From Cystobacterineae bacterium (GTDB taxonomy: Bacteria; Myxococcota; Myxococcia; Myxococcales; Myxococcaceae): DNA of 44,757 bases. The notes below the pieces were generated by a model that had not been told where the DNA came from, did not search any database, and was given only the letters and a program-made list of their open reading frames with translations. Location: positions 1 to 44,757 of the forward strand of contig WRKR01000022.1 in NCBI GenBank assembly GCA_009782175.1, read 5' to 3'. Position numbers and translations under genes: made by a program. Of the stretch, positions 26,287 to 43,577 are shown in pieces; position 1 is the stretch's first letter; each line of letters opens with the position of its first letter.

Positions 26287-26372
26287 TTCTCCCGCTCTCT
26301 TGGACTCAAACAGGCCTGACAACACAATGCTCTTCCGCTACATTCAGGGAGGGGCGCTTTTCCAGCAAGGCT

Positions 26373-28493
26373 TCAGCGGGACAGCATAATTTGCGTAATA
26401 ACCTTTATTTGGATTTCGGGGGGCAACTCTTGATAGCTCATAACGGGCAGTGGCGGTGTAAACTCATGTGACAACAGGTTATACACATAACGTCGGACTT
26501 GCATTTTCGTGAGGATGACGGGCCGTTGTGCAGAAGGGCTCACAAAGCCGCATTCCCGCCGGACAGCGCCAACAATCTCCCGGGAAATATCTGGCTCTAT
26601 GGCCAAATAGGCAGAGCCGCTGGCTGAATATTTGATGGACTCTTGAATAATGCGCTCAATATCCCTGTCCAGAGAATAAACCAGCAAAGAAGTGGTTCCC
26701 CGGGCATGCTTGCTGGCAATAGGCCGCCTCAACGCCACGCGCACGTGCTCTGTCAGCATAATGCTGTCTGTCTCCTGGCTGTTTTCAGCAATGGCTTGCA
26801 AAATGCCTTGCATATCGCGAATGGAGACGCCCTCGCCCACAAGGCGTTTGAGAATTTCTGTCAACTTCACAATGCTGACCACCCTGGGGATGGTTTCCTT
26901 AATGAGCGTAGGCGAAATTTTCTCCAGCTGATCCAACATGAATTGGGCTTCTTGTACGCCTATAAAGTCCGGGGCATAGCGTTTGAGCACCGCCGACAAA
27001 TGCAAAATCAGAAAAGCGGGGATGTTCCATACGGTGGGGCCTATAGCGCGCACGGATTCTGCATGGGTGGATGGAACCCAGGCGGCGGCCTGCATGGTGG
27101 CCGGATTCACGCTGGGAGTCCCCGGAATCCCCATCATTTTCAGCCTGTTGACACTCTCGTTGGCGAGCACATGCTTGAGCACCACCTGCCCTAAAACAAG
27201 TGGAACCTCATTGATATAGATGGCATAGCCTGCCGCGGGCAGGCTTGAATTTCCGCGGACCCGGATGCTGGGAAAGCGCACGCCAAGCTCGACAAACAAG
27301 CCGTTGCGCATTTGCGGGATGAGCTCTGACATAAAGCGCCCTTTGTCCGCGCTGGGGTCTACAAACCTGACCAAATCCGGGGCCACTTCCAAAACCACTG
27401 GGGTAACCATGGGGACAAACATTTCGGAATCTGGATTTACAGGGGGCGGGGGCGCCGCGATGGAGGGTGCCACAACATCCTCATCCTCTTCTTCAGTGTC
27501 CACGAGTTTAGGTGGCGGTTTAATGCCTTCTTTCTCTTTTTTCATGAGCCAATAACCAAAGCCTCCCACAATGCCTCCCAGCAGAAGAAAGGGGACGGTG
27601 GGAAGCCCTGGAATAGCCCCAAACACCAACAGCATGCCGCCTGCAATGGCCAATGCCCTGGGGTATCGCGTCAGCTGTGTCGTCACATCCTTCCCCAGGT
27701 GTGTGCCCTCTTCTTCTCCTCCGACGCGTGTGACGATAATGCCGGCGGCCGTTGAAATGAGAATGGCAGGAATCATCCCCACCAAACCATCTCCAATGGT
27801 CAACAAAGTATATTTGCGGGCTGCAGCGTCAATGCCCATTCCCTTCTGCATCACGCCAATGGCGAGGCCTCCGACAATGTTCACCACCGTCACAATAATA
27901 TTGGCAATGGCATCGCCTTTGACAAACTTCATGGCGCCGTCCATGGCACCCATCAAAGCGCTTTCTCGCTCCAAGTCTCTGCGGCGACGCTTGCCTTCTT
28001 CTGTATCAATGACGCCGCCGCGCATATCCGCGTCAATGGACATCTGCTTGCCTGGCATGGCATCCAAAGTAAAGCGCGCGCCCACCTCAGAGACGCGCTC
28101 GGAGCCTTTGGCGATAACCAGAAAGTTCACAATAACCAGGATGATAAAAACAATGGCGCCGACGACAAAATTGCCTGCGGCCACAAAATTGCCGAAGGCG
28201 ACAACCACCTCACCCGGGTCGCCCGTGGAAAGGATTAAGCGCGTGGTTGAAACAGAGAGCGCCAGCCTATACAGCGTCGTCAGCAACAACAACGTTGGGA
28301 AAATAGAAAGGTTTAAGGCCTTGGGCACATAGAGGGAAATGAGCAAAATCAGCACCGACAAGCTGATGTTGATGGTCAACAAGACGTCCAGCAACATGGT
28401 CGGCAACGGAATCAACATCATTCCGATGATGGCAATGACCAACCCAGCTAAAACGACGTCGGAATATTTGCTAATGAACCGATTTTCGCTCAT
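26373..28493 (-). CDS. sctV: T3S export gate protein SctV (FlhA/YscV family)
   Basis: Major export-gate subunit (706 aa). The N-terminal half (about residues 15-325) has the multi-helix membrane domain with the FHIPEP-family signature around DAMPGKQMSIDADMRGGVID and the cytoplasmic loop GKRRRRDLERESALMGAMDG. The C-terminal half forms the nonameric ring that docks chaperone-substrate complexes. The ATG at 28493 (AGGGA upstream) is preferred over the TTG codon just before it. A terminator (28632-28668) separates it from Gly-rich twin B, so it must have its own promoter in the 28494-28640 spacer or depend on read-through. Confidence 0.96.
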   Translation of the reverse strand: MSENRFISKYSDVVLAGLVIAIIGMMLIPLPTMLLDVLLTINISLSVLILLISLYVPKALNLSIFPTLLLLTTLYRLALSVSTTRLILSTGDPGEVVVAFGNFVAAGNFVVGAIVFIILVIVNFLVIAKGSERVSEVGARFTLDAMPGKQMSIDADMRGGVIDTEEGKRRRRDLERESALMGAMDGAMKFVKGDAIANIIVTVVNIVGGLAIGVMQKGMGIDAAARKYTLLTIGDGLVGMIPAILISTAAGIIVTRVGGEEEGTHLGKDVTTQLTRYPRALAIAGGMLLVFGAIPGLPTVPFLLLGGIVGGFGYWLMKKEKEGIKPPPKLVDTEEEDEDVVAPSIAAPPPPVNPDSEMFVPMVTPVVLEVAPDLVRFVDPSADKGRFMSELIPQMRNGLFVELGVRFPSIRVRGNSSLPAAGYAIYINEVPLVLGQVVLKHVLANESVNRLKMMGIPGTPSVNPATMQAAAWVPSTHAESVRAIGPTVWNIPAFLILHLSAVLKRYAPDFIGVQEAQFMLDQLEKISPTLIKETIPRVVSIVKLTEILKRLVGEGVSIRDMQGILQAIAENSQETDSIMLTEHVRVALRRPIASKHARGTTSLLVYSLDRDIERIIQESIKYSASGSAYLAIEPDISREIVGAVRRECGFVSPSAQRPVILTKMQVRRYVYNLLSHEFTPPLPVMSYQELPPEIQIKVITQIMLSR

Positions 28494-28631
28494 CAAAAGT
28501 CCCTACACCGAAAGTGCCCGCATTCTGGCTTTTCTTACGAGCTTTCTTTGAAGTCAAACGAAAAGCCCACATGCGCATAAACATGCAGGCAGATGACAAC
28601 AACTTCTATCAGTGGCTTTCAAATTGAAAAC

Positions 28632-28668
28632 AAAAAAAGCGGCGCCCCACCAGGAATAGGGCGCCTTT
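28632..28668 (-). terminator. Terminator after Gly-rich twin B, upstream of sctV
   Basis: GGCGCCC (28641-28647) pairs with GGGCGCC (28659-28665), and T7 follows on the minus strand. It is homologous to the twin A terminator. Confidence 0.87.
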
Positions 28669-28691
28669 GGGATTTTGATGCTCTCTAAGGA

Positions 28692-29036
28692 CTATCTCAT
28701 GTTATTAATGACTGACATCGCTATCTCATTTTGCTTCTTCAGCATGTTAGTCATCATCGCGATAGTCTCTTGGGTGTCCTGCATCTGTGCCTGCATCATC
28801 ATGTTATCCATCCCCTTCGACATCATTTTATCGAGCATACCCTGAAAGTTTTGCGCAGATGGACCCGACATTTTTGATATACCACCACCACCACCACCAC
28901 CACCTCCTCCTCCACCGAACATGTCCACTATACCGCCCAACGTGCCCATGATGCCACTGCTGGAGCTCGAAGAGCCACCGCCCATTATCCCTGAAATCAT
29001 AGAGCCAACATTGCCAATTATACTTCCGATATCCAT
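28692..29036 (-). CDS. Gly/Met-rich small protein, twin B; candidate T3S substrate
   Basis: A 114-aa paralogue of twin A. The N-terminus MDIGSIIGNVGSMISGIMGG, a longer Gly run (GGGGGGGGGGGG) and an identical C-terminal helix except for one or two residues (QNFQGML versus QDFQGML, DTQET versus DIQET). It has the same AAAAGGAG leader. Differences concentrate in the Ser/Thr/Gly hinge, while the Met/Gln-rich helix is preserved, suggesting that the helix is the functional part. Role as for twin A: inferred exported or assembly component of the T3S system. Confidence 0.75.
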   Translation of the reverse strand: MDIGSIIGNVGSMISGIMGGGSSSSSSGIMGTLGGIVDMFGGGGGGGGGGGGISKMSGPSAQNFQGMLDKMMSKGMDNMMMQAQMQDTQETIAMMTNMLKKQNEIAMSVINNMR

Positions 29037-29562
29037 GGTGTTTCTCCTTTTAAATGGTGTGCAACTTTATCTCTAAAACGCATACAGACTATCTATGGTT
29101 GTCGAGAAAAACCTCTCACACAGTCGATCTTTATTTGTTGACAGAAAGAGAAATTTCTTTCTGTTAAATGACATATATATTGTCGACGGAGACAAACATT
29201 TGTTTCTCGAAAAACAAACAAAAAACATCTTTTTTTATTTGTGTCTTTGATTGCGCAAAACATTTCACACAGAAAGGGGTTTGCGAGAAAACCGTCAATA
29301 ATAACAATATATTAATATGGAACACAAAGAGTGTGTTTTGCGCAAAAATTCAAATACAGAACACAAACTAAACTGAGTGTTCGGGTTTAGACATAAAACA
29401 CAAACACTCTAAACCAGACTGAGTGTTTGTATGCTGCCACAAAAGACATACACTTTAAGCCGGTTTTATGTTGAAGTGAGTGTGGCGAGCACAGCACAAC
29501 GTTGGAGGCGAGCTAAAGCTTGTCTGCGCTCTGCTCCATTTCCTTCGTTCTGTGCGGGGGTG
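29037..29562. promoter_or_regulatory. AT-rich spacer with nested inverted repeats
   Basis: After the conserved leader (to about 29133) the DNA becomes strongly AT-rich, unlike the rest of the locus. Inverted repeats include TGCGCAAAAC at 29252-29261 with 29335-29344, and ACAAACACTC at 29400-29409 with 29421-29430. CTAAAC/GTTTAG pairs lie near 29368-29390. A GGCGAGCTAAAGCTTGTCTGCGCTC dispersed-repeat copy is at about 29504-29530. No gene. Likely control region for twin B. Confidence 0.6.
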
Positions 29563-30042
29563 TTATCGGGAGCTGCGAAGGAGTGAGAGCATGGCTTGAG
29601 CTTTTTTGTGCAGCTTGTCTTTGGGGGGCAAAAGCCGCATGGCAAGCAGCAAGTCTTCGGCTGCTTGTTTGCGTTGTCCCAAGGCCAGCCTCGCTTCTGC
29701 TCTGCCTATAAAAACCGAGGCGTCTTTGGGCGCCAGGCGCAGGGCAATATCAAAAGCGGCCAGGGCATCCTGCGCGTTGCCTGCGGCCAACTCAACCACG
29801 CCCAGGGCCTTGGCAAAATAAATGTCTGTGGGGCTAATGGCATAAAGCCCTTGGAATAAGGTGCGGGCTTCTCGAATTTTCCCCTGCATGAAAAACTGGT
29901 GGCCAAACCGTGCAATGCTATAAAGCTCCGCATCGGTATATCCGCGTACTTCTTTCAGGCTTGCTTTGCGGTCTATCCAACGTTGCAACATTTCCTGAGG
30001 CGAAGGGGAGGCGGCAGGAGAGGACACCGGGGGTTGTTTCAT
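29563..30042 (-). CDS. TPR protein, SycD/LcrH-like T3S chaperone candidate
   Basis: A 159-aa protein from the ATG at 30042 (AGGGGAAAG upstream); the frame is open to a TTG at 30085-30087. After a Pro/Ser-rich start, TPR units read LYSIARFGHQFFMQGKIREA, AKALGVVELAAGNAQDALAAF and VFIGRAEARLALGQRKQAAED. Order and spacing match SycD/LcrH class II chaperones. It is the last gene of the long operon and lies directly upstream of Gly-rich twin B, so it may serve that protein. The C-terminus is a short basic helix. Confidence 0.72.
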   Translation of the reverse strand: MKQPPVSSPAASPSPQEMLQRWIDRKASLKEVRGYTDAELYSIARFGHQFFMQGKIREARTLFQGLYAISPTDIYFAKALGVVELAAGNAQDALAAFDIALRLAPKDASVFIGRAEARLALGQRKQAAEDLLLAMRLLPPKDKLHKKAQAMLSLLRSSR

Positions 30043-30083
30043 GGCTTTCCCCTTTTCCACCAAACAGCCAAGCATGCAACCAT

Positions 30084-30566
30084 TCAATAGCCTTCTTTTC
30101 TTTGCTCCTCCTGGCGAAGTCGCTCAACTTCATCCAGGTTTTCACTTATTTCACCCACCAAGCGCAACATGTTTTCTTCATAGGCCAGCATGGACTTTAA
30201 ACGCTCCAGGCGATCTGCAGGCACATTCAAAACCATCAACTGTTTTTTGAGTTTGCCAAGCGACTCGGAAGTGCCGCGCTCCAAGGCCTGCGCCAACTCT
30301 TCACGCTCTGAAAAAGCATTTGAAGCGTCTTCTTTTCCACTCCAAGGCATGGGAGGGGATGGCAACCTCAGCTCTTCTGAAGAGCGGGCAGGGCCTATAA
30401 ACTCCAACAAAGCCGCAGAAGCCAGCGGGGCAGACTGGGCGTCACGCTTCCGGCTTGTCTGCCTGCTCTCCAACTGCGAGGAGCGAATCAGCTTCTCTTG
30501 AACATTTCTTGCCCCTCCCCATGACCACATGGGGGACTTTGGCGGTGGTGAATTTATATTCGACAT
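30084..30566 (-). CDS. Unknown T3S-locus protein (160 aa)
   Basis: I do not recognise this family. Residues 1-90 are Ser/Pro-rich and probably disordered (MSNINSPPPKSPMWSWGGAR start, no Sec signal). Residues about 90-160 form a charged coiled coil ending RLVGEISENLDEVERLRQEE. A disordered N-terminus plus a coiled coil is typical of T3S-exported or chaperone-bound proteins, and the gene sits between the FhlB-like gene and a TPR chaperone. It could be a substrate of that chaperone or a gatekeeper-like regulator; neither is shown. Confidence 0.6.
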   Translation of the reverse strand: MSNINSPPPKSPMWSWGGARNVQEKLIRSSQLESRQTSRKRDAQSAPLASAALLEFIGPARSSEELRLPSPPMPWSGKEDASNAFSEREELAQALERGTSESLGKLKKQLMVLNVPADRLERLKSMLAYEENMLRLVGEISENLDEVERLRQEEQRKEGY

Positions 30567-30594
30567 CTCTCATCCATGGTGGAGCCCCTTCAAC

Positions 30595-30876
30595 TCATTT
30601 TCTCTGCAAAGGCGCATTTTGTTGCGAAAGCGAATAAACAAAATTCAAAATTTCGGCCACAGCATCATAAAGGCTCTCCGGAATTTCTTGCCCAACTTCT
30701 ACGCGAAACAAAGCTTCTGCCAAACTCACATTGCGCAAGACAGGAATGTTATTTGCTTTCGCAATTTCTCGGATTTTATCAGCCCTCAGCTTCAACCCTT
30801 TGGCAATAACCCGCGGAGCACTGTCCTGCTCTTTGTCATATTTCAGCGCAATGGCAATTTCTGAGCCCTCATCCAT
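30595..30876 (-). CDS. Stand-alone SctU/FlhB C-terminal domain (FhlB/FlhX-like)
   Basis: A 93-aa protein aligned without gaps to the cytoplasmic C-terminal domain of SctU next door: ALKYDKEQDSAPRV is identical and ALFR-x-E-x-G-x-EIPE-x-LYDAVAE-x-LNFVY is shared. It begins right after the place of the SctU NPEH cleavage site and has no membrane segments and no Asn-Pro itself. Some flagellated bacteria carry such a fragment (FhlB/FlhX), which can replace the FlhB C-domain in substrate-specificity switching. Here it follows sctU by 43 nt and looks like a tandem duplication product. No Shine-Dalgarno is evident. Confidence 0.88.
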   Translation of the reverse strand: MDEGSEIAIALKYDKEQDSAPRVIAKGLKLRADKIREIAKANNIPVLRNVSLAEALFRVEVGQEIPESLYDAVAEILNFVYSLSQQNAPLQRK

Positions 30877-30919
30877 AAAAAGAAGCTAGCAAAAGCCACG
30901 CTCGCTTGCCAAGCCCCCA

Positions 30920-31975
30920 CTATTTGTTGTGGCTTAGGCCATAGACAAAATTCAAAACCTCAGCCACAGCATCATATAACTCTTCGGGAATTTCACTGCC
31001 TATCTCGATGCGAAACAAGGCATGCGCCAAGGGCACATTCCTCAATATGGCCACATCATGCCGACGCGCCAGCTCCTTTATGCTTTGTGCACGGCTGTCC
31101 AAGCCTTTGCAAAGCACACGCGGAGCACTGTCTTGCTCTTTGTCATATTTCAGGGCAACCGCCACATGCTCCGGATTGGTCACCACAAAGTCCGCATCCG
31201 CCACCGCCGCCATTTGGGCCCCCTCCATAATTTCATGATGCATTTGCTTTCGCTTGGCCTTGCTATGTGGATCTCCCTCAGACTCCTTATATTCACGCTT
31301 GACTTCCTGCATGCTCATCATCATCTTCTTGCGATAACTATAGTGTTGAAACCACACATCAAAAATCGCAAAAGCCAAATAGGCCAAGCTGACTTGCACC
31401 ACCAGCCTAAAAATCAACTCCCCCATCAGCGCCATGGTGACATTGGCTTCTTGAGTTACGGTCAGCGTAATGAATTTCAGCGCATCCTGAATCACCAGAT
31501 AAACCACAAAACCCGTAACACCCATCTTCACCAATGACTTGGGCAACTCCATGAGTTTTTGTTGAGAAAACAGATTTTTAAGGCCACTTAAAGGGTTGAG
31601 TTTGTCCAGCTTGGGCATCAATACTTTGGGGCTAAACAAAGCACCTACCAACAAAAAATCCGTCAAACTCCCCACCACCGCGCAGGAGATAACCACCGGC
31701 AAGGAAAGCAACAACACATTCCATATGCCCATGTTGAGCGCATCGCGTATGGCTTGAGAGATGTTTTCAGGCTGAGCAATGGCATCAAAAGTAAACAAAA
31801 ACATCATGTTAATGCGATCTTCCCAAAAGGGCCACATGCTTTTTAATACGCCCATGGCCACCACAAAACCCAAGACACTCTTTAAGTCCTGGCTCTTCCA
31901 AACATTGCCATCTTTGCGCGCATCCCGAATTTTTTTGGACGTGGGTTGTTCTGTTTTTTCTCCGCCTTCAGCCAT
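30920..31975 (-). CDS. sctU: T3S export switch protein SctU (FlhB/YscU family)
   Basis: 351 aa from the ATG at 31975 (AAAGGAG 7 nt upstream). The EKTEQPTSKK-like N-terminus, typical of the family, is followed by four membrane helices (about 32-210). A linker with KREYKESEGDPHSKAKRK and the autocleavage region NPEH (267-270) come next; most relatives have NPTH, so Thr is replaced by Glu while Asn-Pro is kept. The C-domain ends in FVYGLSHNK. SctU closes the export gate and switches substrate class after self-cleavage. It is downstream of sctT with a 16-nt gap. Confidence 0.96.
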   Translation of the reverse strand: MAEGGEKTEQPTSKKIRDARKDGNVWKSQDLKSVLGFVVAMGVLKSMWPFWEDRINMMFLFTFDAIAQPENISQAIRDALNMGIWNVLLLSLPVVISCAVVGSLTDFLLVGALFSPKVLMPKLDKLNPLSGLKNLFSQQKLMELPKSLVKMGVTGFVVYLVIQDALKFITLTVTQEANVTMALMGELIFRLVVQVSLAYLAFAIFDVWFQHYSYRKKMMMSMQEVKREYKESEGDPHSKAKRKQMHHEIMEGAQMAAVADADFVVTNPEHVAVALKYDKEQDSAPRVLCKGLDSRAQSIKELARRHDVAILRNVPLAHALFRIEIGSEIPEELYDAVAEVLNFVYGLSHNK

Positions 31976-31991
31976 CTTAAGCTCCTTTCCT

Positions 31992-32822
31992 TCAACCCAG
32001 AAGGCCGATGGCGCGACCAAAGCGCAGAAACATGACGTTGTATTCCTGGCTGAGGCGCCCCACCATCAGGTGCAGCGAAACAATAACCATCAACGCCGTC
32101 ACAGCAGGCTTTATTTGCATGGCCATGAAAAACACTTGTATTTGGGGAGCCGCGCGGTTGATGACGCCCAGCGCCGCTTCTGTGAGGAAAATAGCGAGCA
32201 ATATGGGTGAGGCCAAAATCAACCCAATGCGAAACAAATCGCCAAATACCCGCAGGACAACCTCAATAAACGGCCACATCCCCAGAGAAAAACGGGGAAA
32301 CTCATTCAAAGGTACCTTCAAAAAACTATCGGCCAAAGCTTCAATAACCCAATGGTGTCCATTCAGCGTTAAAAACAACACCACCACCAGTTGAAGCTTC
32401 AATGAAGAATAGAGGGTTACTCTGTGCTGTATTTGGGGCACAAACATTTGTGCCTGGGTGGAGCCTGAAAAAATGTCCATAAATGCCCCGGCTGCCCCAG
32501 CAAATTTAAAAACCAAATCCACAATAAACGCCAAAGAAAAACCAATAAAAACCTCTTTGAGCAACAAGGCCAAATAGGGAACCACCTCAATGGGAATTTG
32601 CGCCATCTGCTCGCTTAACGCAGGAAACAACAAAGCACCCAATATCACCCCCAAACCCATGCGCGCTTGCGCCGGAATGCTTTCTCCTCCAAGAAAAGGC
32701 GTAAAAATAACCACCGGCAACAATCGCGCCAGAATGAGCGCCATTGAAAAAACGGCCAGACTCAAGTCAACTCTAATTCCAAACTCGTTGCGCGCCTGAG
32801 TCAGAATTTCATCCAAATTCAT
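31992..32822 (-). CDS. sctT: T3S export gate protein SctT (FliR family)
   Basis: 276 aa, six or so membrane helices (for example MALILARLLPVVIFTPFLGG and FIGFSLAFIVDLVFKFAG). With SctR and SctS it builds the helical inner-membrane export channel. FliR-family features include the GxxIPAQARMGLG loop and a C-terminal LMVGRLSQE segment. The ATG overlaps the sctS stop by 4 nt (ATGA). Confidence 0.95.
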   Translation of the reverse strand: MNLDEILTQARNEFGIRVDLSLAVFSMALILARLLPVVIFTPFLGGESIPAQARMGLGVILGALLFPALSEQMAQIPIEVVPYLALLLKEVFIGFSLAFIVDLVFKFAGAAGAFMDIFSGSTQAQMFVPQIQHRVTLYSSLKLQLVVVLFLTLNGHHWVIEALADSFLKVPLNEFPRFSLGMWPFIEVVLRVFGDLFRIGLILASPILLAIFLTEAALGVINRAAPQIQVFFMAMQIKPAVTALMVIVSLHLMVGRLSQEYNVMFLRFGRAIGLLG

Positions 32823-33085
32823 GGAGCAACCATGTTGGGGAACTGATCGAAAATCCTAAAAGTAAACCTCAACAGCTGTGTCCCTATCCACCCACCGGCA
32901 ACGCCAAGCGTTCCAAATACGGCTATCAGCTTGGGAGCAAAGGAAAGCGTCTGCTCCTGAATTTGCGTGGTCGCTTGCACAACAGAAATGGTGACACCCA
33001 CAACCAAACTCATGAGCACAGGTAAAGCGGCTGTCAACAACACGAGATATAAGGCTTGCTGCGTTAAAAAAGTCAGTTGATGCAT
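32819..33085 (-). CDS. sctS: T3S export gate protein SctS (FliQ family)
   Basis: 88 aa with two membrane helices separated by the conserved polar loop (VQATTQIQEQTLSFAPKL), diagnostic of FliQ/SctS. Four copies wrap around SctR5-SctT in the export gate of known systems. It lies 15 nt after sctR and overlaps sctT. Confidence 0.96.
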   Translation of the reverse strand: MHQLTFLTQQALYLVLLTAALPVLMSLVVGVTISVVQATTQIQEQTLSFAPKLIAVFGTLGVAGGWIGTQLLRFTFRIFDQFPNMVAP

Positions 33086-33100
33086 GGCAATGCGACTCCG

Positions 33101-33895
33101 TCAGAGATAACCAGAAACCAAACCCTTGGCGATAAGATACCAGCCATCCACCAACACAAAAATGAGCAACTTAAATGGCATGGATATGGTTGTCGGCGAC
33201 AACATATGCATGCCCAAAGCAAGCAAAATGTTGGCCACCAACATGTCGATGACAATGAAAGGAATAAACAACAAAAACCCAATTTGGAAAGCCTGCTTGA
33301 GCTCTGAAACCACAAATGCGGGCGTCAATATGAGAAAATCATCCGGCCCAATGTCATCTCTGTCTGCCGGCGCCCTCATCTTGCGCGCAAGGCTATAAAA
33401 AAGCGTCTTGTCTTTGGCTGAAACTCGCTTTTTTAAAAAAGTCCGCAAAGGCTCTTTCGCTTTCTGGGCAGCCTCCATCAGCTGCCCTGCGGACTTCGCA
33501 GAAAGCAGCCCCTCGCTGTTCTGAATGTCGGCAGGGTTCGCCTCGCGGTACATCTCCTGGAGTGTCGGTGACATGATGTAGACCGTCAAAATAATCGCCA
33601 ACCCCGTAATCACTTGCGTAGGCGGAATTTGCTGCGTGCCCAGGGCTGAACGCACAATGGACAAAACCACTGAAATTTTGACAAAGCTGGTCACCATCAG
33701 CAGCACAAAAGGGGCAAGCCCCATCGCTGCCAAAACCAACAACAATACCATGGGCCGGCTGGCATAGGAGTCCGGCGTTAGTGTGTCTACGGACAAAGAC
33801 TGAGGGCCGCCACGCCTCTGCGCCAAAACCCACATGGGAAATATGGACGCTATCAACAACCCAATTCTAAAAAAACGCGCATTCCAAGTCCTCAC
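33101..33895 (-). CDS. sctR: T3S export gate protein SctR (FliP family)
   Basis: 264 aa beginning with GTG (33895) that overlaps the FliO-like stop (GTGA). An N-terminal cleavable-type signal (FFRIGLLIASIFPMWVLAQ) resembles flagellar FliP, which is often made with one; injectisome SctR usually lacks it. FliP-family signatures VLLMVTSFVKISVVLSIVR, LGTQQIPPTQV and FIPFIVIDMLVANILLALGM are intact. Core pore subunit of the export gate. Confidence 0.95.
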   Translation of the reverse strand: MRTWNARFFRIGLLIASIFPMWVLAQRRGGPQSLSVDTLTPDSYASRPMVLLLVLAAMGLAPFVLLMVTSFVKISVVLSIVRSALGTQQIPPTQVITGLAIILTVYIMSPTLQEMYREANPADIQNSEGLLSAKSAGQLMEAAQKAKEPLRTFLKKRVSAKDKTLFYSLARKMRAPADRDDIGPDDFLILTPAFVVSELKQAFQIGFLLFIPFIVIDMLVANILLALGMHMLSPTTISMPFKLLIFVLVDGWYLIAKGLVSGYL

Positions 33896-34677
33896 GACTC
33901 TCCCTCGCTAAATGGCTCTTTGCTTGTCTTTCGCTCCAAGAGCTTCTTCAGAAACAAACTGGGCTCACCAGACGGCTTGTTTTTGTTGCTGCTGAGCACC
34001 TGCTCCACCTCTTCTGTGTTCAGTTTTGATAAGACAGTCAAAACCCTCTCCCCGTTGGACAACAAAAAATAGTCGTTGGCAACTTTGACAAGCAATAAAC
34101 CTTTTCTCGCATCAACAGAAACCCGCTCTATAATGGAAATGACGCGCTGACCTCTGCCATCCCTCAATTTTAACAAACGCTTCCCACCCCAATTCAACAA
34201 AATATAAGCCAGGAGTACAACTCCCGCGAGCACCAGCAACGTTTGCAGCAACATCCACCCCAGCCCCGGCTCATATGGAGAAAGCTCAGCACCCAGCGAA
34301 GAAAGCTCAGTGTCAGCAGGAGGAAGCTTGGCGTCAACGGGAGAAAGCTCAGTGTCAGCAGGAGGAAGCTTGGCACCAACGGGAGAAAGCTCAGTGTCAG
34401 CGGGAGGAAGCTTGGCGCCAACGGGAGAAAGCTCAGCGTCAGCGGGAGGAAGCTTGGTGCCAACGGGAGAAAGCTCAGTGTCAGCGGGAGAAAGCTTGGC
34501 GTCAACGGGAGAAAGCTCAGTGTCAGCAGGAGGAAGCTTGGCGCCAACGGGAGAAAGCTCAGTGTCAGCGGGAGGAAGCTTGGCGCCAGCGGGAGAAAGT
34601 TTGGCGTTTGGCTCTGGAAGGGCTTCTGGGCTTAAGGCTTCTGCGCTGGCAAGCGCAATAACGAGCAGGGACAGCAT
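33892..34677 (-). CDS. FliO-like export-gate assembly protein with periplasmic 14-residue repeats
   Basis: 261 aa from the ATG at 34677 (AGGAG 5 nt upstream). A TTG at 34713 would add a basic n-region and a more usual signal peptide. After the signal, residues 27-124 are seven tandem copies of LSPVGAKLPPADTE plus a partial eighth. One membrane helix follows (MLLQTLLVLAGVVLLAYILL, about 139-158), then a cytoplasmic domain with RVISIIERVSVDARKGLLLVK, as in FliO. FliO helps assemble FliP rings in flagella; injectisomes normally have no counterpart. Its place directly before sctR is the flagellar order O-P-Q-R. Confidence 0.85.
   Translation of the reverse strand: MLSLLVIALASAEALSPEALPEPNAKLSPAGAKLPPADTELSPVGAKLPPADTELSPVDAKLSPADTELSPVGTKLPPADAELSPVGAKLPPADTELSPVGAKLPPADTELSPVDAKLPPADTELSSLGAELSPYEPGLGWMLLQTLLVLAGVVLLAYILLNWGGKRLLKLRDGRGQRVISIIERVSVDARKGLLLVKVANDYFLLSNGERVLTVLSKLNTEEVEQVLSSNKNKPSGEPSLFLKKLLERKTSKEPFSEGES
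34306..34599. repeat. Seven tandem 42-bp units inside the FliO-like gene
   Basis: Each 42-bp unit encodes LSPVGAKLPPADTE with few changes (G/D, P/S, T/A). Because 42 is a multiple of three, all other frames remain open across it. Low divergence between units indicates recent expansion or gene conversion; copy number may vary between strains. Confidence 0.95.
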
Positions 34678-34693
34678 GCTTGCTCCTGCAAAT

Positions 34694-34945
34694 TTATGAG
34701 CCTTCAACGGCAATCAGCCTTATGCCCAATTGTCCGTCGAACTCGACCAGTTCACCTTGTCCAACTGTCTTTCCATTGACAACCAAGTTCAATGGATCTG
34801 AGGCAAGTCGACCTAGATCGATCACATGCCCTACTTTCATTTCAACAACCTCTTCTATGGTCACTGGAATGCGTGCAAGCTCGACAACAAGCCTCAAAGG
34901 CACATCGCTCAACAGTGGTGCAGCACTCAGTTGGTTTGGGTCCAT
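34694..34945 (-). CDS. Internal translation product SctQ-C (SpoA2 domain)
   Basis: The internal in-frame ATG (34943-34945, MDPNQLSAAPLLSD) is preceded at 5 nt by AAAAGGGG. The 83-aa product is exactly the C-terminal SpoA domain. In several known T3S systems, such a short form is made by internal initiation and is needed with full-length SctQ. The call here rests on position and ribosome-binding site only. Confidence 0.55.
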   Translation of the reverse strand: MDPNQLSAAPLLSDVPLRLVVELARIPVTIEEVVEMKVGHVIDLGRLASDPLNLVVNGKTVGQGELVEFDGQLGIRLIAVEGS

Positions 34946-36007
34946 TATTTCCCCTTTTCTTTTGCCCCTATCAGAAAGATTGTGGTCAAGGCTTTCTGAT
35001 ACTGTGCCTAGAGTTATTTTTTCAACCTCTGCTTTATACCCTCTCCCGTCAAAACCAAGCTGACAATCCAAATGGCCCGAAAAACCCGCGCCAATTCGCA
35101 ATTCAGCGCTTCCGTCCGCTCGCTTATCCGGTCTCAAAGTGAGCTTATCTAAAAGTACAGTCGCCCCTGGGCGAAGCCCTTCATATTCAGCCTTGGGAAT
35201 CTCCGCATGCCCAATCTCCACGCGCAAAGACAAATTGGGCAATGCAAGGCGATCTTTTGCTCGAATCAAATTTTGCTGCATTCTATAGGCTCGAACAGGT
35301 GCATCCGCATGCGGCTGCAATTTGGACAACACTGTCGCAGGAATAAAAAACCGAAAACATCCCTTATGTCCATCGACGCTGGCCGACAAACTCATCAACA
35401 CCATATGCGTCTCTGAGGCCATCAACGGCATAACGGCTTTGCTGCTGCTAAAAATATTGTCCAGGCGAACATGAACCTTCCCAGCCCCAGCGTTGACAAA
35501 CATCGTCCTTAAAACCTGCAAAGCAAGAAATTGAAGAATGCCTTCTTCCAGCTCCGTCAATGCACGAATTTCAACGGATTCACTGTTGGCGCCAAGCAAC
35601 AGCTCAACCGCTTTGTGTGCAAAGCCAAGCTCAATTTCCCAAAAACCCCTCGGCTGGTATGGCCGAAATGACAACACCGCCAAAAAAGTGGGCTCAGCAA
35701 CGCAGGACGGCAACGCAGAAACAGGCACAACTTGAAAATAATCAAAAGTCAGCTGAACATCTTCGCTCTGAAGACAATTTTTGAGTGTTTGAGCTATTGC
35801 CTCCAACATCTCAAAAGGCTCAGCAAATGCCGGGAATAACCACTCCAAACTCTTAAAGAGTTGTGCCTCTTGACGAGAAACTTTGGGGAGGTTGGGAAAA
35901 AACTCTACCTTTTTCCAAGAACACATTGAAAGCAGATCATTCTGCGTCAGCAGCATGGTGCTGTCAGCTGCCCGCCGAGAAGGGGTTATTTTGCTTGTAT
36001 CTGTCAC
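34694..36007 (-). CDS. sctQ: T3S sorting-platform / C-ring protein SctQ (FliM/FliN family)
   Basis: 437 aa, GTG start overlapping the sctP stop (GTGA). The N-terminal part (about 1-240) resembles the FliM/SctQ middle region only loosely. Two SpoA domains follow: SpoA1 at about 255-340 (LSLRVEIGHAEIPKAEYEGL) and SpoA2 at about 362-437 (RLVVELARIPVTIEEVVEMK ... GQGELVEFDGQLGIRL). SctQ forms the cytoplasmic pods or ring that sort substrates. An internal ATG at 34945 with its own GGGG Shine-Dalgarno would give the SpoA2 domain alone, as known for YscQ and SpaO. Confidence 0.93.
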   Translation of the reverse strand: MTDTSKITPSRRAADSTMLLTQNDLLSMCSWKKVEFFPNLPKVSRQEAQLFKSLEWLFPAFAEPFEMLEAIAQTLKNCLQSEDVQLTFDYFQVVPVSALPSCVAEPTFLAVLSFRPYQPRGFWEIELGFAHKAVELLLGANSESVEIRALTELEEGILQFLALQVLRTMFVNAGAGKVHVRLDNIFSSSKAVMPLMASETHMVLMSLSASVDGHKGCFRFFIPATVLSKLQPHADAPVRAYRMQQNLIRAKDRLALPNLSLRVEIGHAEIPKAEYEGLRPGATVLLDKLTLRPDKRADGSAELRIGAGFSGHLDCQLGFDGRGYKAEVEKITLGTVSESLDHNLSDRGKRKGEIMDPNQLSAAPLLSDVPLRLVVELARIPVTIEEVVEMKVGHVIDLGRLASDPLNLVVNGKTVGQGELVEFDGQLGIRLIAVEGS

Positions 36008-37023
36008 GAGTTCATCTCAAATTTCAGATGGGTCAGCGTCAAGCCCCGCACATCCAACGCCGTATGCAAAGCGTCACTTTGCTCTTCAACCACCTTTAAA
36101 GCATTCTTGTCGGAACCAGAGAAAACCACGCTTATTTTTCCACCGGATGATGAAACCCGCATAGAAAGCCCGGACAAAACATCCGAGCGAAAATCAATCT
36201 GAAATTCTGCATTGCCTGCTTTGTTGGTTCCAACACGCACCCGCTCAACAATTTTTTGAGCAATCTCGCTGGCAATCCTCCTTAGGCGCTCAGAATCACC
36301 TGTGGGCTTTGGACGAACAAGGGGGGCTGGCTCCATGAGGGCGGGATTGGTGTTGAGCAACCTCCCCAAATCCTCCTGGGGCTCTTTGTTTGAGCGCTTA
36401 AGCTCAGCGGCTTGACGCATATCTGAAGTCTTCTCTTCTGCCCTTATACTTTTGCTCTCTTCTCTGGCTGCAGTGTATTTCTTGGCATCCGATTTGGCTT
36501 GAGCAGAACGGCCCTCTACTTGGCTCTCCGTCTCTGAAGCAGACTTCTTCCCCACCTCTGCTTGCTCTCGTGTTTCTGTCTTGGAAAGGTTTCTATCGCC
36601 TTGCTGAAGTTTTGTCGCTTGCTCCTGGCTGTGCTGCGTGCTCTGTTCTTTCAGCTGCTTCTGGGAGAGGGGCTTATTGTTTTCTGAAGACGCTTTTGCG
36701 GATTCACCTTCTTGCCCCATCAACTCTCGCAACACCGCATTGCTTTCTCCTCCAGCGCGTGCATATCTGCCCAACACGCGCTCTTTGTCCGCTTGCATTC
36801 GCGCGGCCGAGGAGGGATCTGCCTTTTCTAAAAATTTTGCATGAGCCTCCGAGGCATGTCCTCGGTTAATGTTTTGCCCCTGCTGTTTTTGGCTATCGCT
36901 AACAAGTCGAGAAAAAACAGTGTTTGTTGCTTGTTTGTCAACTCGGAGCTTGTCTTCTATGCGCCTTTGCTCCGCAACGCGCTCAGCCTGGCGAGCTGCC
37001 CCATCATCATCAATTCTGCTCAT
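36004..37023 (-). CDS. sctP: T3S needle/hook-length regulator SctP (FliK family)
   Basis: 339 aa. The first about 240 residues are polar, Gln/Lys/Glu/Ser rich and probably extended, as expected for a molecular ruler. The C-terminal about 95 residues (from LRRIASEIAQKIVERVRVG to LTLTHLKFEMNS) match the FliK/Flg_hook substrate-switch domain that contacts SctU. It overlaps both neighbours by 4 nt (ATGA with sctO, GTGA with sctQ). Assignment rests on the C-domain pattern plus gene order. Confidence 0.8.
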   Translation of the reverse strand: MSRIDDDGAARQAERVAEQRRIEDKLRVDKQATNTVFSRLVSDSQKQQGQNINRGHASEAHAKFLEKADPSSAARMQADKERVLGRYARAGGESNAVLRELMGQEGESAKASSENNKPLSQKQLKEQSTQHSQEQATKLQQGDRNLSKTETREQAEVGKKSASETESQVEGRSAQAKSDAKKYTAAREESKSIRAEEKTSDMRQAAELKRSNKEPQEDLGRLLNTNPALMEPAPLVRPKPTGDSERLRRIASEIAQKIVERVRVGTNKAGNAEFQIDFRSDVLSGLSMRVSSSGGKISVVFSGSDKNALKVVEEQSDALHTALDVRGLTLTHLKFEMNS

Positions 37024-37520
37024 GTTTTTCCCCCTCTCCTTCTTTGTAAGTGCAAGGCGTTGCCAATCTCCTCTTGCACAAGCTCTTCTCGCATTTGCCG
37101 TTCATAACGCACTTGTTTAGCCCATTGCTCTTTGTGTTTCTCAATGGCTTTCTTCTCTTTGGCCGCCTCTGCCATTTCCGACCTTTTTTGCTCCATCCAC
37201 TGCTCCGCTCGCTTCACATTTCCTTCTTGCGCCCCTATCTCCAGCTCCAGCTTCGCCTCCTCATCCTTCAGCCTTTGCTCAAAACGCTCAAATTGCTCAA
37301 ATGCGTTGGCCTGAAGCGCTTGCGCGGATAAGACGGATTGCATATGAGCAAGCACCTTCTCTTTGCGTTCCTGTTGCCGCCTTGTCAAATGGGAACGCAT
37401 CTCTTCTAAAATTTTTTTCTGCTTGTGCAAAGCCTGCATCGCCTCAGAAAAAACCTGCTTTGCAGCTTCCTCCGCTCGTTCCCGCATTTCTAGCAAAGTT
37501 TGCAGTCGATAAGCTGGCAT
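37020..37520 (-). CDS. sctO: T3S ATPase stalk protein SctO (FliJ/YscO family)
   Basis: 166 aa, almost entirely one long antiparallel coiled coil (LQTLLEMRERAEEAAKQVFS start, basic tail). FliJ/SctO sits in the central pore of the SctN hexamer, like the gamma subunit of F1, and links it to SctV. Size, coiled coil and position right after sctN are diagnostic. Confidence 0.88.
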   Translation of the reverse strand: MPAYRLQTLLEMRERAEEAAKQVFSEAMQALHKQKKILEEMRSHLTRRQQERKEKVLAHMQSVLSAQALQANAFEQFERFEQRLKDEEAKLELEIGAQEGNVKRAEQWMEQKRSEMAEAAKEKKAIEKHKEQWAKQVRYERQMREELVQEEIGNALHLQRRRGGKT

Positions 37521-37535
37521 ATGCTTTGCCTTCTA

Positions 37536-38852
37536 TCACGCTTCAAATAAAGCAACGAGTGCTGCTGCTGTGTCTTCAAAACTGACACTGCTGTCCGTGG
37601 ACTGTTTCAAAAAACCGATGATAGCGTCATATTTGTCAATGGCATAGTCCGTTCGTGGATCTGTCCCATATTGATAGGCGCCAAGCAAAATCAAATCCCT
37701 TTGTTTTTCATAGGTTGCAAGGGCTTCCCGAAGTTTTCCTGCGGCAACTTTGTGCTTTTTGTCGACCACTTGATTCATGACGCGGGACAAGGAAGCCAAA
37801 ACATCCATGGCCGGCCATTGGTTGCGCTCTGCGAGGGTGCGGTTTAAAATGAAGTGTCCGTCCAGAATACCGCGTACTTCGTCGGCAATGGGCTCTTCCA
37901 TGTCGCCACCGGCAACCAAAACCGTATAAATGGCCGTGCATTTGCCTTTCTCAGAATTCCCGGTCCTCTCGAGGATTTTGGGGAGCATGGAAAACACAGA
38001 GGGAGGATATCCCTGGCGTGCAGGGGGCTCTCCTATGGCCAAACCAATTTCACGCTGTGCTCTTGCAAGGCGCGTCACGGTATCCAGCATGAACAAGACG
38101 TTGCCCCCACGCTCTCGAAAATATTCTGCAATGGAGGTAGCCACAAAAGCAGCACGCAAACGCACCAAAGAAGGTTGGTCTGAGGTTGCGCAAACCACAA
38201 TAGAACGCTTAAGCCCCTCTCCCAGCGCATCTTCCACAAACTCCAAAACCTCGCGACCGCGCTCGCCAATCAGTGCAATAACGGCCAACTCGGCAGCCGT
38301 GTTGCGCGCAATCTGCCCCATCAACGTAGACTTGCCAACACCAGAGCCTGCAAAAAGCCCTATACGTTGTCCTTCGCCCACCGTCAGCAACCCATCAATG
38401 CAACGCACCCCCAAAGGCAATGGCCTCAAAATACGTTGGCGCTTGTATGGATCTGGACACTCCCGGTCCACGGACCATTCTATCAACCCCTCTTTAGGCA
38501 AAGGACGACCATCAATGGGCTCTCCCAAACCATTGAGTACGCGACCCAACAAGGCATCTCCTACGCGAATGTTCAAAGGGCGACCTGTGGAAAGCACTTC
38601 ACTGTCTGGGCCTATGCCTTGCAGTTCTCCCAGAGGCATCATCATTACCTCATCCCCTTGAAAACCCACCACCTCCGCTTTGACAGCTGCACGGTTGCGC
38701 CCTTTTATAAAACACAACTCACCCACACGCACGTTGGGCACAGCCGCCTTAATCACCAAACCTGTCAGCTCTGTGACACGCCCACGCACGCCGACCAATT
38801 GCGCATTCCTGAGCAAGTTTTGATAGCGCCCCCAGGGAATTGCAAGGTCCAT
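37536..38852 (-). CDS. sctN: T3S ATPase SctN (FliI/YscN family)
   Basis: 438 aa from the ATG at 38852; a TTG two codons earlier overlaps the sctL stop. The N-terminal beta-barrel (about 1-90) is followed by the RecA-type core with Walker A GSGVGKST (169-176), the VLFMLDTVTRLARAQREIG Walker B region, and the GEPPARQGYPPSVFSMLP signature that separates T3S ATPases from F1-beta. The hexamer unfolds substrates and releases chaperones. Catalytic motifs are complete. Confidence 0.97.
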   Translation of the reverse strand: MDLAIPWGRYQNLLRNAQLVGVRGRVTELTGLVIKAAVPNVRVGELCFIKGRNRAAVKAEVVGFQGDEVMMMPLGELQGIGPDSEVLSTGRPLNIRVGDALLGRVLNGLGEPIDGRPLPKEGLIEWSVDRECPDPYKRQRILRPLPLGVRCIDGLLTVGEGQRIGLFAGSGVGKSTLMGQIARNTAAELAVIALIGERGREVLEFVEDALGEGLKRSIVVCATSDQPSLVRLRAAFVATSIAEYFRERGGNVLFMLDTVTRLARAQREIGLAIGEPPARQGYPPSVFSMLPKILERTGNSEKGKCTAIYTVLVAGGDMEEPIADEVRGILDGHFILNRTLAERNQWPAMDVLASLSRVMNQVVDKKHKVAAGKLREALATYEKQRDLILLGAYQYGTDPRTDYAIDKYDAIIGFLKQSTDSSVSFEDTAAALVALFEA

Positions 38853-38854
38853 TC

Positions 38855-39556
38855 TCAATCCGCCTTCCCCAAAGCATCCTCTTCAAACAGAATACGCAGT
38901 GCTCTAAACTGAGTTTCCAGTTGAGCGTCAATGGTCCCAAACTCGGTTTGCACAATGCAACCTCCGGGCTGCACCTCCAGATCGTCCCGAATGGCAATGT
39001 CAACACTGCGCCCAATCAGCTCTATAAGCTCAGGCCGCCTCTCTCGAAGCAATTTGGCATCCCGCGGGTGAACGCGCAAAAGCATGGCCTTGGCTGTTCG
39101 CAAATTCTCAATGGCGTTTGCACAAATTTCCAAAAGCAGCTGCGGCTCCCTCTCCAAATCCCTGCCAATCATTTTTTCGGCAATCTGGCAGGCCAACTCA
39201 ATAAGCTCCTTTTTGGCCTCTGCCAACATACTGCCTGCTTGCATCTTCGCCTTGGCCAACTCCGTGGCGGCCTGAGCTGCAGCTTCTTCCAACGCTTCCT
39301 CACGTGTTTCTTGAAAAACAAGTGCGCGCTGGCGCTCAGCATCCTCTAACAACTCTCGGGCTTTTTGTTCAGCCTCTTCGATGATGCCTTTGGCTTTCGA
39401 GCGTGCATCCACCTCTTCGGGACGCACAACAATGCCACGTATGGGGGGGGAACGCATGGCTGCCGCAGGTTTAAGGGGTGATGGATCGCTGGACAAACCC
39501 CCAGGAATAATTTTTCCTGAGCTTCTGAGTGGCCCCTTGTTGTCAATATCTGCCAT
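38855..39556 (-). CDS. sctL: T3S ATPase regulator SctL (FliH/YscL family)
   Basis: 233 aa. N-terminal about 45 residues are disordered. A long Ala/Glu/Lys-rich helix (about 50-125: ARSKAKGIIEEAEQKARELL and on) leads into the FliH C-domain (about 130-230, with LACQIAEKMIGRDLEREPQL and VQPGGCIVQTEFGTIDAQLE). The latter, DxxLxPGGCxIET-like, is a hallmark of the family. SctL dimers link SctN to SctQ. GGAG lies 8 nt before the ATG. Confidence 0.94.
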   Translation of the reverse strand: MADIDNKGPLRSSGKIIPGGLSSDPSPLKPAAAMRSPPIRGIVVRPEEVDARSKAKGIIEEAEQKARELLEDAERQRALVFQETREEALEEAAAQAATELAKAKMQAGSMLAEAKKELIELACQIAEKMIGRDLEREPQLLLEICANAIENLRTAKAMLLRVHPRDAKLLRERRPELIELIGRSVDIAIRDDLEVQPGGCIVQTEFGTIDAQLETQFRALRILFEEDALGKAD

Positions 39557-39585: not shown

Positions 39586-41310
39586 CTACCCCTTGCGAGT
39601 GGGTTTCTCTCCAATATTCCTTTGACCATGAGTTGCCTGCGCTGTCCTCTCATTCCCTTGCCTTAAGGCTCCTGCTCCCCCTGGCATAGGCCTGCGAGGA
39701 GCAGACTGTGGTGAGGGCATGCGAATGCCCGCTGCCTTGCCCGTGGGCATATTTGGGGTCGAAGGCGACACCGGACGCCTTGCTTCTGTTATTTCAGGCG
39801 AGGGTGATGGGCGCCTTGTTTCTGCTGCCTTAGGCAGGGGCAACGGGCGCTTGGCTTCTGTTATTTCATACGAGGGTGACGGACGCCTTGCTCCTGCTGT
39901 TTTAGGCGGGGGCGACGGACGCCTTGCTTCTGTTATTTCAGGCGGGGGCGACGGACGCCTTGCTTCTGTTATTTCAGGCGGGGGTGACGGACGCCTTGCT
40001 TCTGTTGTTTTAGGCGGGGGCAACGGGCGCTTGGCTTCTGTTATTTCAGGCGAGGGTGATGGACGCCTCACATGTGCCGTTTTGGGCGGCTGCGCTGCCG
40101 AGCGCTCTATGGTGTGTGGTTTTGGCAGTCGATGGCTGCGGTTTGCAGCTGGAGAAGCCATGGGGAGGTTTCCCCTCTCTCCACCAGGGCCTACAAGCCT
40201 TGAGGGTGTAGGCTTCGGAAGCTTTTCAGCTGGCACGCGAGAGGGTTTCATGGCTGGCGGCGCTGCCAAACGCGCAGAGCCCACACTTGGAACAGAACCC
40301 AGGGGAGCAGGTTTCGCTCGAGCAGCTGCCTTAGGAGGTGGAGTGACAGGGATTATTTTGGGTTTGGACAAAACGAGTGGGCGCTCAACAAAGCCCCGCT
40401 TCGCCAAAAATTCAAGCTGATCCAAAATGTCAGCTCTTCCACCATCTCCCTGGACTTTCTTGCCTTTTTCTTCATCCAACCAATGAGAGAGCAGCTTGCC
40501 CAATTCCCCTTCATGCCGCCGTGCCATTTTAGAAGCAAAATCGGCGGATTCTGACAGACAAGCCCTCATAATGCGCCGTACACCTGCGCTTCGAAGCGCC
40601 GAGGAGGAATTTGCCGTTCCACCATATAACTCTAACAATCTACGCGAGTCATTGGCCTGCAGTGGACGCATTTGGCCAGCTGCATCACAAGCTTTTTGAG
40701 CCAATATCCTCTGGTCCGGAGGAAGTGAATCAAAAAAACTCTGCCGTTCGCCACTGGGCAACCCCGCCAATGCTGTTGCAAACACACGAGCGCCCATTCT
40801 GTCACAAACCGTAATAAGCTCTCTGGCCTGCAAACCCAAAATGTCTTCAAACCTAAAGAGGGCGCTGATGGAAGCGTTTTGAAGTTCTTCTTCAAGTTTC
40901 CAGCGCACAAAGGAAAACACTTCAGGGCTGGGTTCTCTGCGCAGTTGTGTTTTTTTAGAGCTGGGAAGTGCAGCTTGAACGGAATTCGCCAGCAAGGAAG
41001 GCAAAGCGCGCAAAACCACTTCAGCAACAACGGGCTTCTCTTTTGCCAACAATCCAGCCAGGTGTTCCGGTTCTGCTGTCGCAAGCCTCCGGCGTCGCAT
41101 GCTGAGCAGGCGACGCATTTCACGTACCAAGAAAGGTATCCTCTGCTCCTTGGGGATGGAGCGAAAAGCTTCAGTGCGGTGCTTTAAAAGCTCTGCGTCT
41201 TCTTCAGGCAAAAACTGAAACGCTTCATCGGCTCCCGCTCCACCAAAAACGACCGATGCCAAAAGCAACATGGTTTGTCGTTTGGAAAGTGAAGCAAAAT
41301 AGTGTTCCAC
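39586..41310 (-). CDS. FliG-like protein in the sctK/fliG position, with Pro-rich repeat tail
   Basis: 574 aa, GTG start. Residues 1-70 resemble FliG_N (LSKRQTMLLLASVV ... FQFLPEEDAELL). Residues 80-145 resemble FliG_M (EKPVVAEVVLRALPS in place of EHPQ..., SPEVFSFVRWKLEEEL). Residues 152-230 align without gaps to the FliG_C motor domain (FEDILGL ... ALAGLPSGERQSFFDSLP). The ARM-C segment between M and C appears missing, and the Asp-Asp of the torque helix is Gln-Ala (161-162). After about residue 310 the protein is Pro/Ala/Arg rich, with nine 12-residue repeats (410-517). In known injectisomes this slot holds SctK. Family assignment is from remembered consensus patterns. Confidence 0.78.
   Translation of the reverse strand: MEHYFASLSKRQTMLLLASVVFGGAGADEAFQFLPEEDAELLKHRTEAFRSIPKEQRIPFLVREMRRLLSMRRRRLATAEPEHLAGLLAKEKPVVAEVVLRALPSLLANSVQAALPSSKKTQLRREPSPEVFSFVRWKLEEELQNASISALFRFEDILGLQARELITVCDRMGARVFATALAGLPSGERQSFFDSLPPDQRILAQKACDAAGQMRPLQANDSRRLLELYGGTANSSSALRSAGVRRIMRACLSESADFASKMARRHEGELGKLLSHWLDEEKGKKVQGDGGRADILDQLEFLAKRGFVERPLVLSKPKIIPVTPPPKAAARAKPAPLGSVPSVGSARLAAPPAMKPSRVPAEKLPKPTPSRLVGPGGERGNLPMASPAANRSHRLPKPHTIERSAAQPPKTAHVRRPSPSPEITEAKRPLPPPKTTEARRPSPPPEITEARRPSPPPEITEARRPSPPPKTAGARRPSPSYEITEAKRPLPLPKAAETRRPSPSPEITEARRPVSPSTPNMPTGKAAGIRMPSPQSAPRRPMPGGAGALRQGNERTAQATHGQRNIGEKPTRKG
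39760..40083. repeat. Nine tandem 36-bp units in the FliG-like gene
   Basis: Units encode (E/K)(I/T)TEARRPSPPP with alternation between EITEA-type and KTTEA-type copies. The run is in-frame and close to identical between some units, indicating recent expansion. The encoded segment is basic and Pro-rich, hence extended. Confidence 0.93.
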
Positions 41311-41352: not shown

Positions 41353-42126
41353 CTATCCTGTCCTCTTTGCAGCACGGCTCTTTAGGAAAATCCATATGGA
41401 GACGCCGGCCACCAGCAAAATTAAAAAACCAGCTCCGCCTACCACCACCAGACGAAATTGGTCCGCGCTGGATTTGGTCATTTGGAAACCAAACACTGTC
41501 TGCAGGCGATCTTTTAGATCTAACTCAGCCTGGGGAGGCGCCGCAAGCACCATGAGGACTTGAACCGCTTCAGGCGCCAACTGTGGCACTGCGGCTGCCA
41601 CAAAACGCCGTATGGAAGGCTCATCCATGGGAGGCTTTTCTTCTTCTCTGGACGTGCGATATTTAATAAACACCGACGCTGAAGGCCTGGGCCTCTCCGC
41701 GTCAGGCACCAGATCGTTAGACTCGGGCAGCATGACCAAAGTCCTCACCTCTAAAATTCCAGGGACTCGGTTGAGCGCATTCGAAATTTCCCCTCCCAAA
41801 GCCTCAAGCAGCATGGCCCGCTCCTCCGTCTGTGTTGGAATCATCCCCTTATTCTTTTTAAACAGGGAAAGCCCGTCCGCACGAACCCGAGGCAAAGAGT
41901 TGTCCGTCAGCAACTGCACAGCGTTGACGGCATCGGCTTTAGGAACGCTGATAATATAGGTAGCTTCGTCAGCTTCAACGCGCTGTTTAGACGCCTGAAT
42001 GCTGTTGCGTTGCAGCAACACATAAATTTCGTTGGCTTCTTCTTCGGATAGATCATGCTGCAAATTCTCAACACAAGCGACCAAACCAATGCCCAACAAG
42101 GCAACAAACCCATATTTTCGGAACAT
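41353..42126 (-). CDS. sctJ: T3S inner-membrane ring lipoprotein SctJ (YscJ/FliF family)
   Basis: 257 aa from the ATG at 42126; the longer open frame to 42204 lies in the terminator region. MFRKYGFVALLGIGLVAC is a lipoprotein signal with lipobox LVAC (Cys about residue 18). The periplasmic RBM domains follow (YVLLQRNSIQASKQ..., LEGELSRALN-like LLEALGGEISNALNRVPGIL, then SVFIKYRT). One C-terminal membrane helix ends the protein (VVGGAGFLILLVAGVSIWIF, about 226-247). Lipid anchoring and shortness mark the injectisome type (SctJ), not flagellar FliF, which is larger and not lipidated. No Shine-Dalgarno is evident. Confidence 0.95.
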   Translation of the reverse strand: MFRKYGFVALLGIGLVACVENLQHDLSEEEANEIYVLLQRNSIQASKQRVEADEATYIISVPKADAVNAVQLLTDNSLPRVRADGLSLFKKNKGMIPTQTEERAMLLEALGGEISNALNRVPGILEVRTLVMLPESNDLVPDAERPRPSASVFIKYRTSREEEKPPMDEPSIRRFVAAAVPQLAPEAVQVLMVLAAPPQAELDLKDRLQTVFGFQMTKSSADQFRLVVVGGAGFLILLVAGVSIWIFLKSRAAKRTG

Positions 42127-42184
42127 AAGCTTTGCGAGACTACACGAAGCTTCCAAAAAAAGCGGCCCAAAAGAAGCAACTTTT

Positions 42185-43569: not shown

Positions 43570-43577
43570 AGCGACTC

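Follow-up and report, generated by a model that had tools for sequence, protein, structure and literature searches.

Why does a FliO-type protein, lengthened by a tandem repeat, lie in front of sctR in a type III secretion system (T3SS) that is not flagellar? The question is raised by the 44,757-nucleotide stretch of DNA analysed here (the window), contig WRKR01000022.1 of a Cystobacterineae bacterium. With a probability of roughly 0.7, we read the protein as the FliO of a non-flagellar T3SS, in which a helix and a domain would act as a gate chaperone and a periplasmic spacer would have been expanded by slippage, with little specific function. The T3SS cluster spans sctV (26373) to sctJ, an sctI-like gene and a FliA/WhiG-like sigma factor (43596), and includes the following genes:

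26373–33085, minus strand: sctV, an FlhB-C-like gene, sctU, sctT and sctS, with small genes between them (profile searches)
33101–33895, minus strand: sctR (FliP family); TIGR01102 (yscR) 233.9, cut-off 208.6; TIGR01103 (fliP) 216.0, cut-off 217.45
34694–36007, minus strand: sctQ, FliM/FliN-related (profile searches)
36004–39556, minus strand: sctP-like and sctO-like genes, sctN and sctL; sctO and sctL are named by position
41353–42204, minus strand: sctJ (profile searches)

By profile scores, gene content and phylogeny, this cluster is a myxobacterial non-flagellar T3SS without a secretin, most likely of the type known in Myxococcus xanthus as T3SS*. First, the sctV product scores 742.1 with the SctV model (cut-off 692.25) and 663.4 with the FlhA model (cut-off 772.1), and SctN scores 625.3 (cut-off 604.75). 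SctU passes the cut-off of its own model and also just passes that of FlhB; SctJ (125.8, cut-off 161.95) and SctQ (98.5, cut-off 100.8) both fall below theirs. Second, the window's genome has one FliP and one FliO only, and flagellar rod proteins (PF00460) gave no match in genomes G000, G001 and G002. The window yielded no sctD, and the cluster contains no secretin; the genome's three secretins are all on other contigs. Third, the M. xanthus T3SS* (MXAN_2434-2464; PMC12075869 and PMC10433427), a system with a role in prey lysis, comprises SctJ, I, Q, R, S, T, U, V, N and L together with several TPR genes and no secretin in the cluster, and the window is alike; orthology is read here from gene composition. 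Finally, a tree built on 65 SctR/FliP sequences groups the window's SctR into a 33-member clade (ultrafast bootstrap 97) that is separate from a group of 12 flagellar FliP (100). A decayed flagellum, with FliO as a flagellar remnant, would account for the joint presence of FliO, a FliG-derived protein, a FliM-like region in SctQ and a FliA/WhiG-like sigma factor. That origin is scarcely credible given the separation of SctR from the flagellar FliP of related genomes in the tree, the several relatives that carry both the T3SS cluster and a flagellum, and the intactness of the genes, which appear to be under purifying selection. The secretins on the other contigs (L033, L034 and L035) are PilQ-like with AMIN, GspD-like, and Tad-like with BON; the Tad-type one would suit a T3SS that lacks its own secretin and pairs with a Kil/Tad system, as happens in M. 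xanthus.

The fliO-like gene lies directly upstream of sctR, which it overlaps by 4 bases, with sctQ on its other side. Its product reads, in order, signal peptide, seven 14-residue repeats, a degenerate eighth, membrane helix and FliO domain:

33892–34677, minus strand: fliO-like gene of the non-flagellar T3SS, 261 aa from ATG
34683–34687, minus strand: AGGAG ribosome-binding-like motif, 5 bases before the ATG
34642–34677, minus strand: putative signal peptide MLSLLVIALASA, short and hydrophobic; cleavage placed at ASA/EA by reading the sequence
34306–34599, minus strand: seven tandem 42-bp units, consensus LSPVGAKLPPADTE (TRF and in-frame reading)
34264–34305, minus strand: degenerate eighth unit LSSLGAELSPYEPG, which aligns with the short linker of relatives
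34195–34251, minus strand: membrane helix LLQTLLVLAGVVLLAYILL, mean hydropathy 2.58, followed by a K/R-rich stretch
33940–34158, minus strand: FliO domain (PF04347; profile match), probably cytoplasmic

The gene has two candidate starts, the ATG at 34677 and a TTG at 34713 (273 aa). The ATG is favoured because the AGGAG motif precedes it and is kept before the ATG in both other species of the genus (conserved in G001 and in L001, a locus on WQYA01000004.1 from a 'Cystobacterineae bacterium' MAG). We rejected the TTG start: no conserved ribosome-binding motif precedes it, and in L001 nothing upstream of the ATG could serve as an in-frame start (ATG, GTG or TTG). From the ATG, no positive residue precedes the hydrophobic stretch of the signal peptide, and relatives' FliO-like proteins show the same signal-peptide region. 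The first-pass annotation had proposed a FliO-type domain and a membrane helix right before sctR, and our searches bear this out: PF04347 matches residues 186–258 (TTG-start numbering) at 36.5 bits (cut-off 22) and was recovered again in a genome-wide search, and the hydropathy of the helix and the overlap with sctR agree. The NCBIfam equivalog for flagellar FliO (TIGR03500) gave 41.3 bits, below its cut-off of 55.25, and we file the protein as a T3SS-associated FliO, not a flagellar one. The annotation had also placed the repeats in the periplasm, which is likely: a signal peptide in front, basic residues following the helix and the FliO family rule would put the repeats outside and the FliO domain in the cytoplasm. 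Pfam found no LysM or AMIN domain in the protein, and AlphaFold models of it (window and L001) had a pLDDT of 44.3, too poor to show a fold.

How unusual is FliO in such a system? Among 60 related genomes there are 87 FliP-family sites, 48 of which score at least 230 bits (34 belong to the window's class, 14 are flagellar), and FliO exceeds the Pfam cut-off within ~1.5 kb of all 48, the 34/34 window-class sctR included (lists compared by eye). The 34 sites reduce to 33 distinct loci, the class-A set. A class-A FliO model matches 33/33 class-A loci, a circular figure because these loci were mostly chosen for having FliO, and 34/34 is the unbiased count; the model also matches 11 of 12 flagellar FliO and gives mostly noise on a second T3SS class ('B'). 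Our first-pass annotation had called FliO flagellum-specific, which is outdated. FliO in myxobacterial non-flagellar T3SS is already published, and our survey agrees with it: Andrianova et al. (2025; PMC12403147) describe FliO as occurring 'frequently' in the non-flagellar T3SS of Myxococcota, including both systems of M. xanthus, and in some Pseudomonadota. The Myxococcota proteins described there share with the window's a FliO domain and one helix, and their periplasmic extensions are known to vary, but the extensions it names are LysM and AMIN, whereas that of the window is a tandem-repeat linker; in the main text of that paper the words 'proline' and 'linker' are absent and 'repeat' appears only as 'repeated'. 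The present locus adds to the case that FliO belonged to the ancestral export gate and is not a flagellar speciality; classical injectisomes would have lost it.

In Salmonella, according to PMC5542435, FliO protects FliP and promotes formation of the FliP–FliR complex. The flagellar protein resembles the window's in its bitopic form with a cytoplasmic domain and in a gene beside fliP, and it is needed for FliP stability; the same text calls FliO flagellum-specific and absent from injectisomes, whereas the FliO of the window belongs to a non-flagellar system and falls under the flagellar equivalog cut-off. By analogy, the helix and cytoplasmic domain would most likely stabilise freshly synthesised SctR (FliP) in the inner membrane and aid its assembly with its partners into the export gate. 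The client here may differ from SctR, because in Campylobacter, by published accounts, FliP levels do not drop when FliO is lost, and it is FlhB for which FliO matters. With both flagellar proteins as guides, the same role for SctR or SctU would be the simplest reading. Comparison of the window with L001 indicates that the FliO core (helix plus cytoplasmic part) is a working gene under strong purifying selection (dN 0.077, dS 1.39, dN/dS 0.055); SctR gives a dN/dS of 0.129.

What, then, is the repeat? The seven 14-residue repeats of the first-pass annotation stand, as the TRF array and the in-frame units agree. TRF reports a 42-bp array of 7.1 copies with 94% matches at 34300–34599, and each 42-bp unit consists of two 21-bp, 7-residue half-units with 15 of 21 bases alike and the pattern L-x-P-x-x-x-K/E. 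The best self-match of the linker covers 14/14 residues, a value reached by none of 300 composition shuffles. A dispersed or mobile repeat is ruled out, as all 7 matches of the unit in the 2.7-Mb genome lie inside the array. We also rejected an alternative coding frame: although five of the unit's six frames are open, that openness is a property of the 42-bp unit, and only the FliO frame runs into a conserved domain. TonB-type periplasmic spacers are proline-rich and charged and lie between an anchor and an outer domain; the FliO repeat is likewise proline-rich, charged and probably periplasmic, but its helix comes after the spacer, and the likeness is one of description. Among the papers listed in our literature search, none reported a FliO with tandem repeats.

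We take the array for a periplasmic spacer that slippage has lengthened rather than for a fixed ruler or a wall-spanning device. The exported N-terminal part would be a flexible, proline-rich periplasmic spacer that joins the signal peptide to the helix and whose length can drift. In the window's species it would have grown from ~20 to ~128 residues through tandem duplication of the 42-bp unit, and because the units are in frame, changes in copy number would alter length only. The added length would be tolerated, would probably have little or no specific function, and would be neutral or nearly so.

Several comparisons bear on this reading. First, the genus comprises three genomes, one per species, all with the fliO-like gene; the linker between signal peptide and helix has 128 residues in the window versus 18 and 20 in the other two species, and the 14-residue repeat is lineage-specific, particular to the window's species. 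The best match of the 42-bp unit within the L001 gene is the linker, LPESGSELPPLELG, at 21 of 42 bases (next best 18), which is only a hint that the repeat derives from the short linker of the genus. Second, the class-A linkers (33 proteins, with boundaries set by a heuristic that gave no linker for L010) contain much Pro and Ala. Their shortest member has 18 residues and the longest 128, about a sevenfold span; the median, 59, includes lower bounds for L024 and L048 at contig ends. The window's is the longest, followed by those of L032 (116) and L008 (103). Third, internal tandem duplication (reached by at most 3 of 300 shuffles) occurs in 6 of 32 linkers, with periods of 14 residues in the window and L008, 20 in L032, 5 in L016, 16 in L022 and 21 in L059. 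The duplicated sequences are unrelated among the six, the window and L008 having only the period in common, and tandem duplication has thus arisen in the FliO linker more than once. Finally, of the only 10 codon cells that differ among the seven units, 6 are non-synonymous and 4 synonymous, and pN/pS over 21 unit pairs is 0.74; at these small numbers, differences between copies do not show constraint, though some may be present. Against a neutral spacer, the array is in frame and without stops and closely keeps the L-x-P-x-x-x-K/E pattern, features that might also come from selection for a rod-like or binding segment, and the linker is the longest of the set. The 18-, 20- and 128-residue linkers form a natural length series in one genus for asking whether the periplasmic arm of FliO matters.

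The repeat might instead be a working periplasmic arm that passes through the peptidoglycan or touches parts of the basal body or outer membrane, in place of LysM or AMIN. Its regular pattern would suit such an arm, ~100 residues of extended chain could reach 20–30 nm, and LysM and AMIN occupy the same place in other Myxococcota FliO (PMC12403147). We nevertheless consider an arm unlikely, since the units show little constraint, no Pfam domain lies above cut-off on the repeat (the best, Spo12, has 14.4 bits against 20.5), and linker length varies widely in the class. The earlier suggestion that the repeat spans the cell wall also fits poorly with the two short linkers in the genus, and because close relatives lack it, a wall-spanning arm cannot be essential to the class. 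Copy number raises a separate doubt. The assembly is a draft of 65 contigs, the 294-bp array exceeds common short reads, and each species is represented by one genome, so the true array could be shorter or longer. An artefact of this kind is very unlikely to explain the repeat, as the units differ in a fixed order and both flanks are intact coding sequence; several units would be real even if the count were not.

The FliO array is one of two proline-rich repeats in the cluster; the other lies in a gene that may be more interesting than the FliO repeat:

39586–41310, minus strand: FliG-derived protein in the sctK/fliG position, between sctJ and sctL, with a proline-rich repeat tail (profile searches)

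Pfam FliG_C matches this product at 32.4 bits (cut-off 23.3) and matches 17/17 family members at E up to 1, these members having been picked through a match to the window query; FliG_M is weak, with 3 of 17. A profile of the 17 proteins against the PDB has FliG as its top match (E 0.0011), and profile–profile comparison with 14 flagellar FliG of related genomes gives a probability of 96.6% (E 5.7e-10, 149 columns), compared with 0.2% for a reversed-profile control (single FliG) and at most 1.4% for 13 other window proteins tested. In flagellar FliG, an acidic pair of the torque helix serves torque. This pair is absent at the matching place in 17/17 of the T3SS proteins and present in all 13 flagellar FliG (of 14) that a motif search located. 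By these profiles, the product is derived from the middle and C-terminal regions of FliG without being a torque-generating FliG. We did not find it in L054 and L055 (other families, in which SctJ was not found either) or in the incomplete loci L036, L042, L048 and L051, and an AlphaFold model of its N-terminal part (pLDDT 45.4) was too poor for a fold search. The tail is long and proline-rich in several species, with unrelated repeats (those of L050 and L053 differ from the window's). In the window it contains a second minisatellite (39772–40068, minus strand; 36 bp, 8.2 copies, unit like RRPSPPPEITEA).

A FliG-derived protein conserved in 17 loci contradicts the statement of Abby and Rocha (2012; PMC3459982) that Myxo T3SS lack FliG. 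It bears on whether SctK descends from FliG, a 2014 review having marked SctK as 'FliG (?)' (PMC4045390). Titles and abstracts yielded no published FliG-derived protein in a myxobacterial T3SS, which is no proof of absence. Tentatively, and at somewhat under even odds, we suggest that the earliest-branching non-flagellar T3SS never shed FliO and FliG, both supposedly hallmarks of flagella, with FliO kept as a gate chaperone and a FliG-derived protein without motor contacts linking the membrane ring to the C-ring, the SctK role. If so, a missing step from flagellar switch to injectisome sorting platform would be visible in living bacteria.

Other genes in and around the cluster are also of note. 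A stand-alone protein like the FlhB C-terminal region (30595–30876, minus strand) comes right after sctU, and matching frames occur in 19 of the 20 larger loci examined, some of which may be sctU itself. The FliA/WhiG-like sigma factor (42745–43596, minus strand) scores 115.5 bits, below the model cut-off of 189.6, and its frame overlaps the sctI-like gene by ~100 bases, an overlap also seen in L001. Two paralogous glycine-rich proteins of ~115 aa (24588–24938 and 28692–29036, minus strand), with a C-terminus that ends in SVINNMR, flank the sctV end of the cluster; they had no useful family match, a PHROGs search included, and weak relatives lie near the same T3SS in 4/20 and 3/20 loci. They are possible export substrates or filament subunits. 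Adjoining sctV is a protein that we label Sel1-like from its sequence (25309–26325, minus strand), with 108-bp DNA repeats; searching the 20 larger loci turned up no relative. A large protein farther away (6076–9117, minus strand) has calcium-binding-type repeats and a VWA-like region, labels likewise given by eye.
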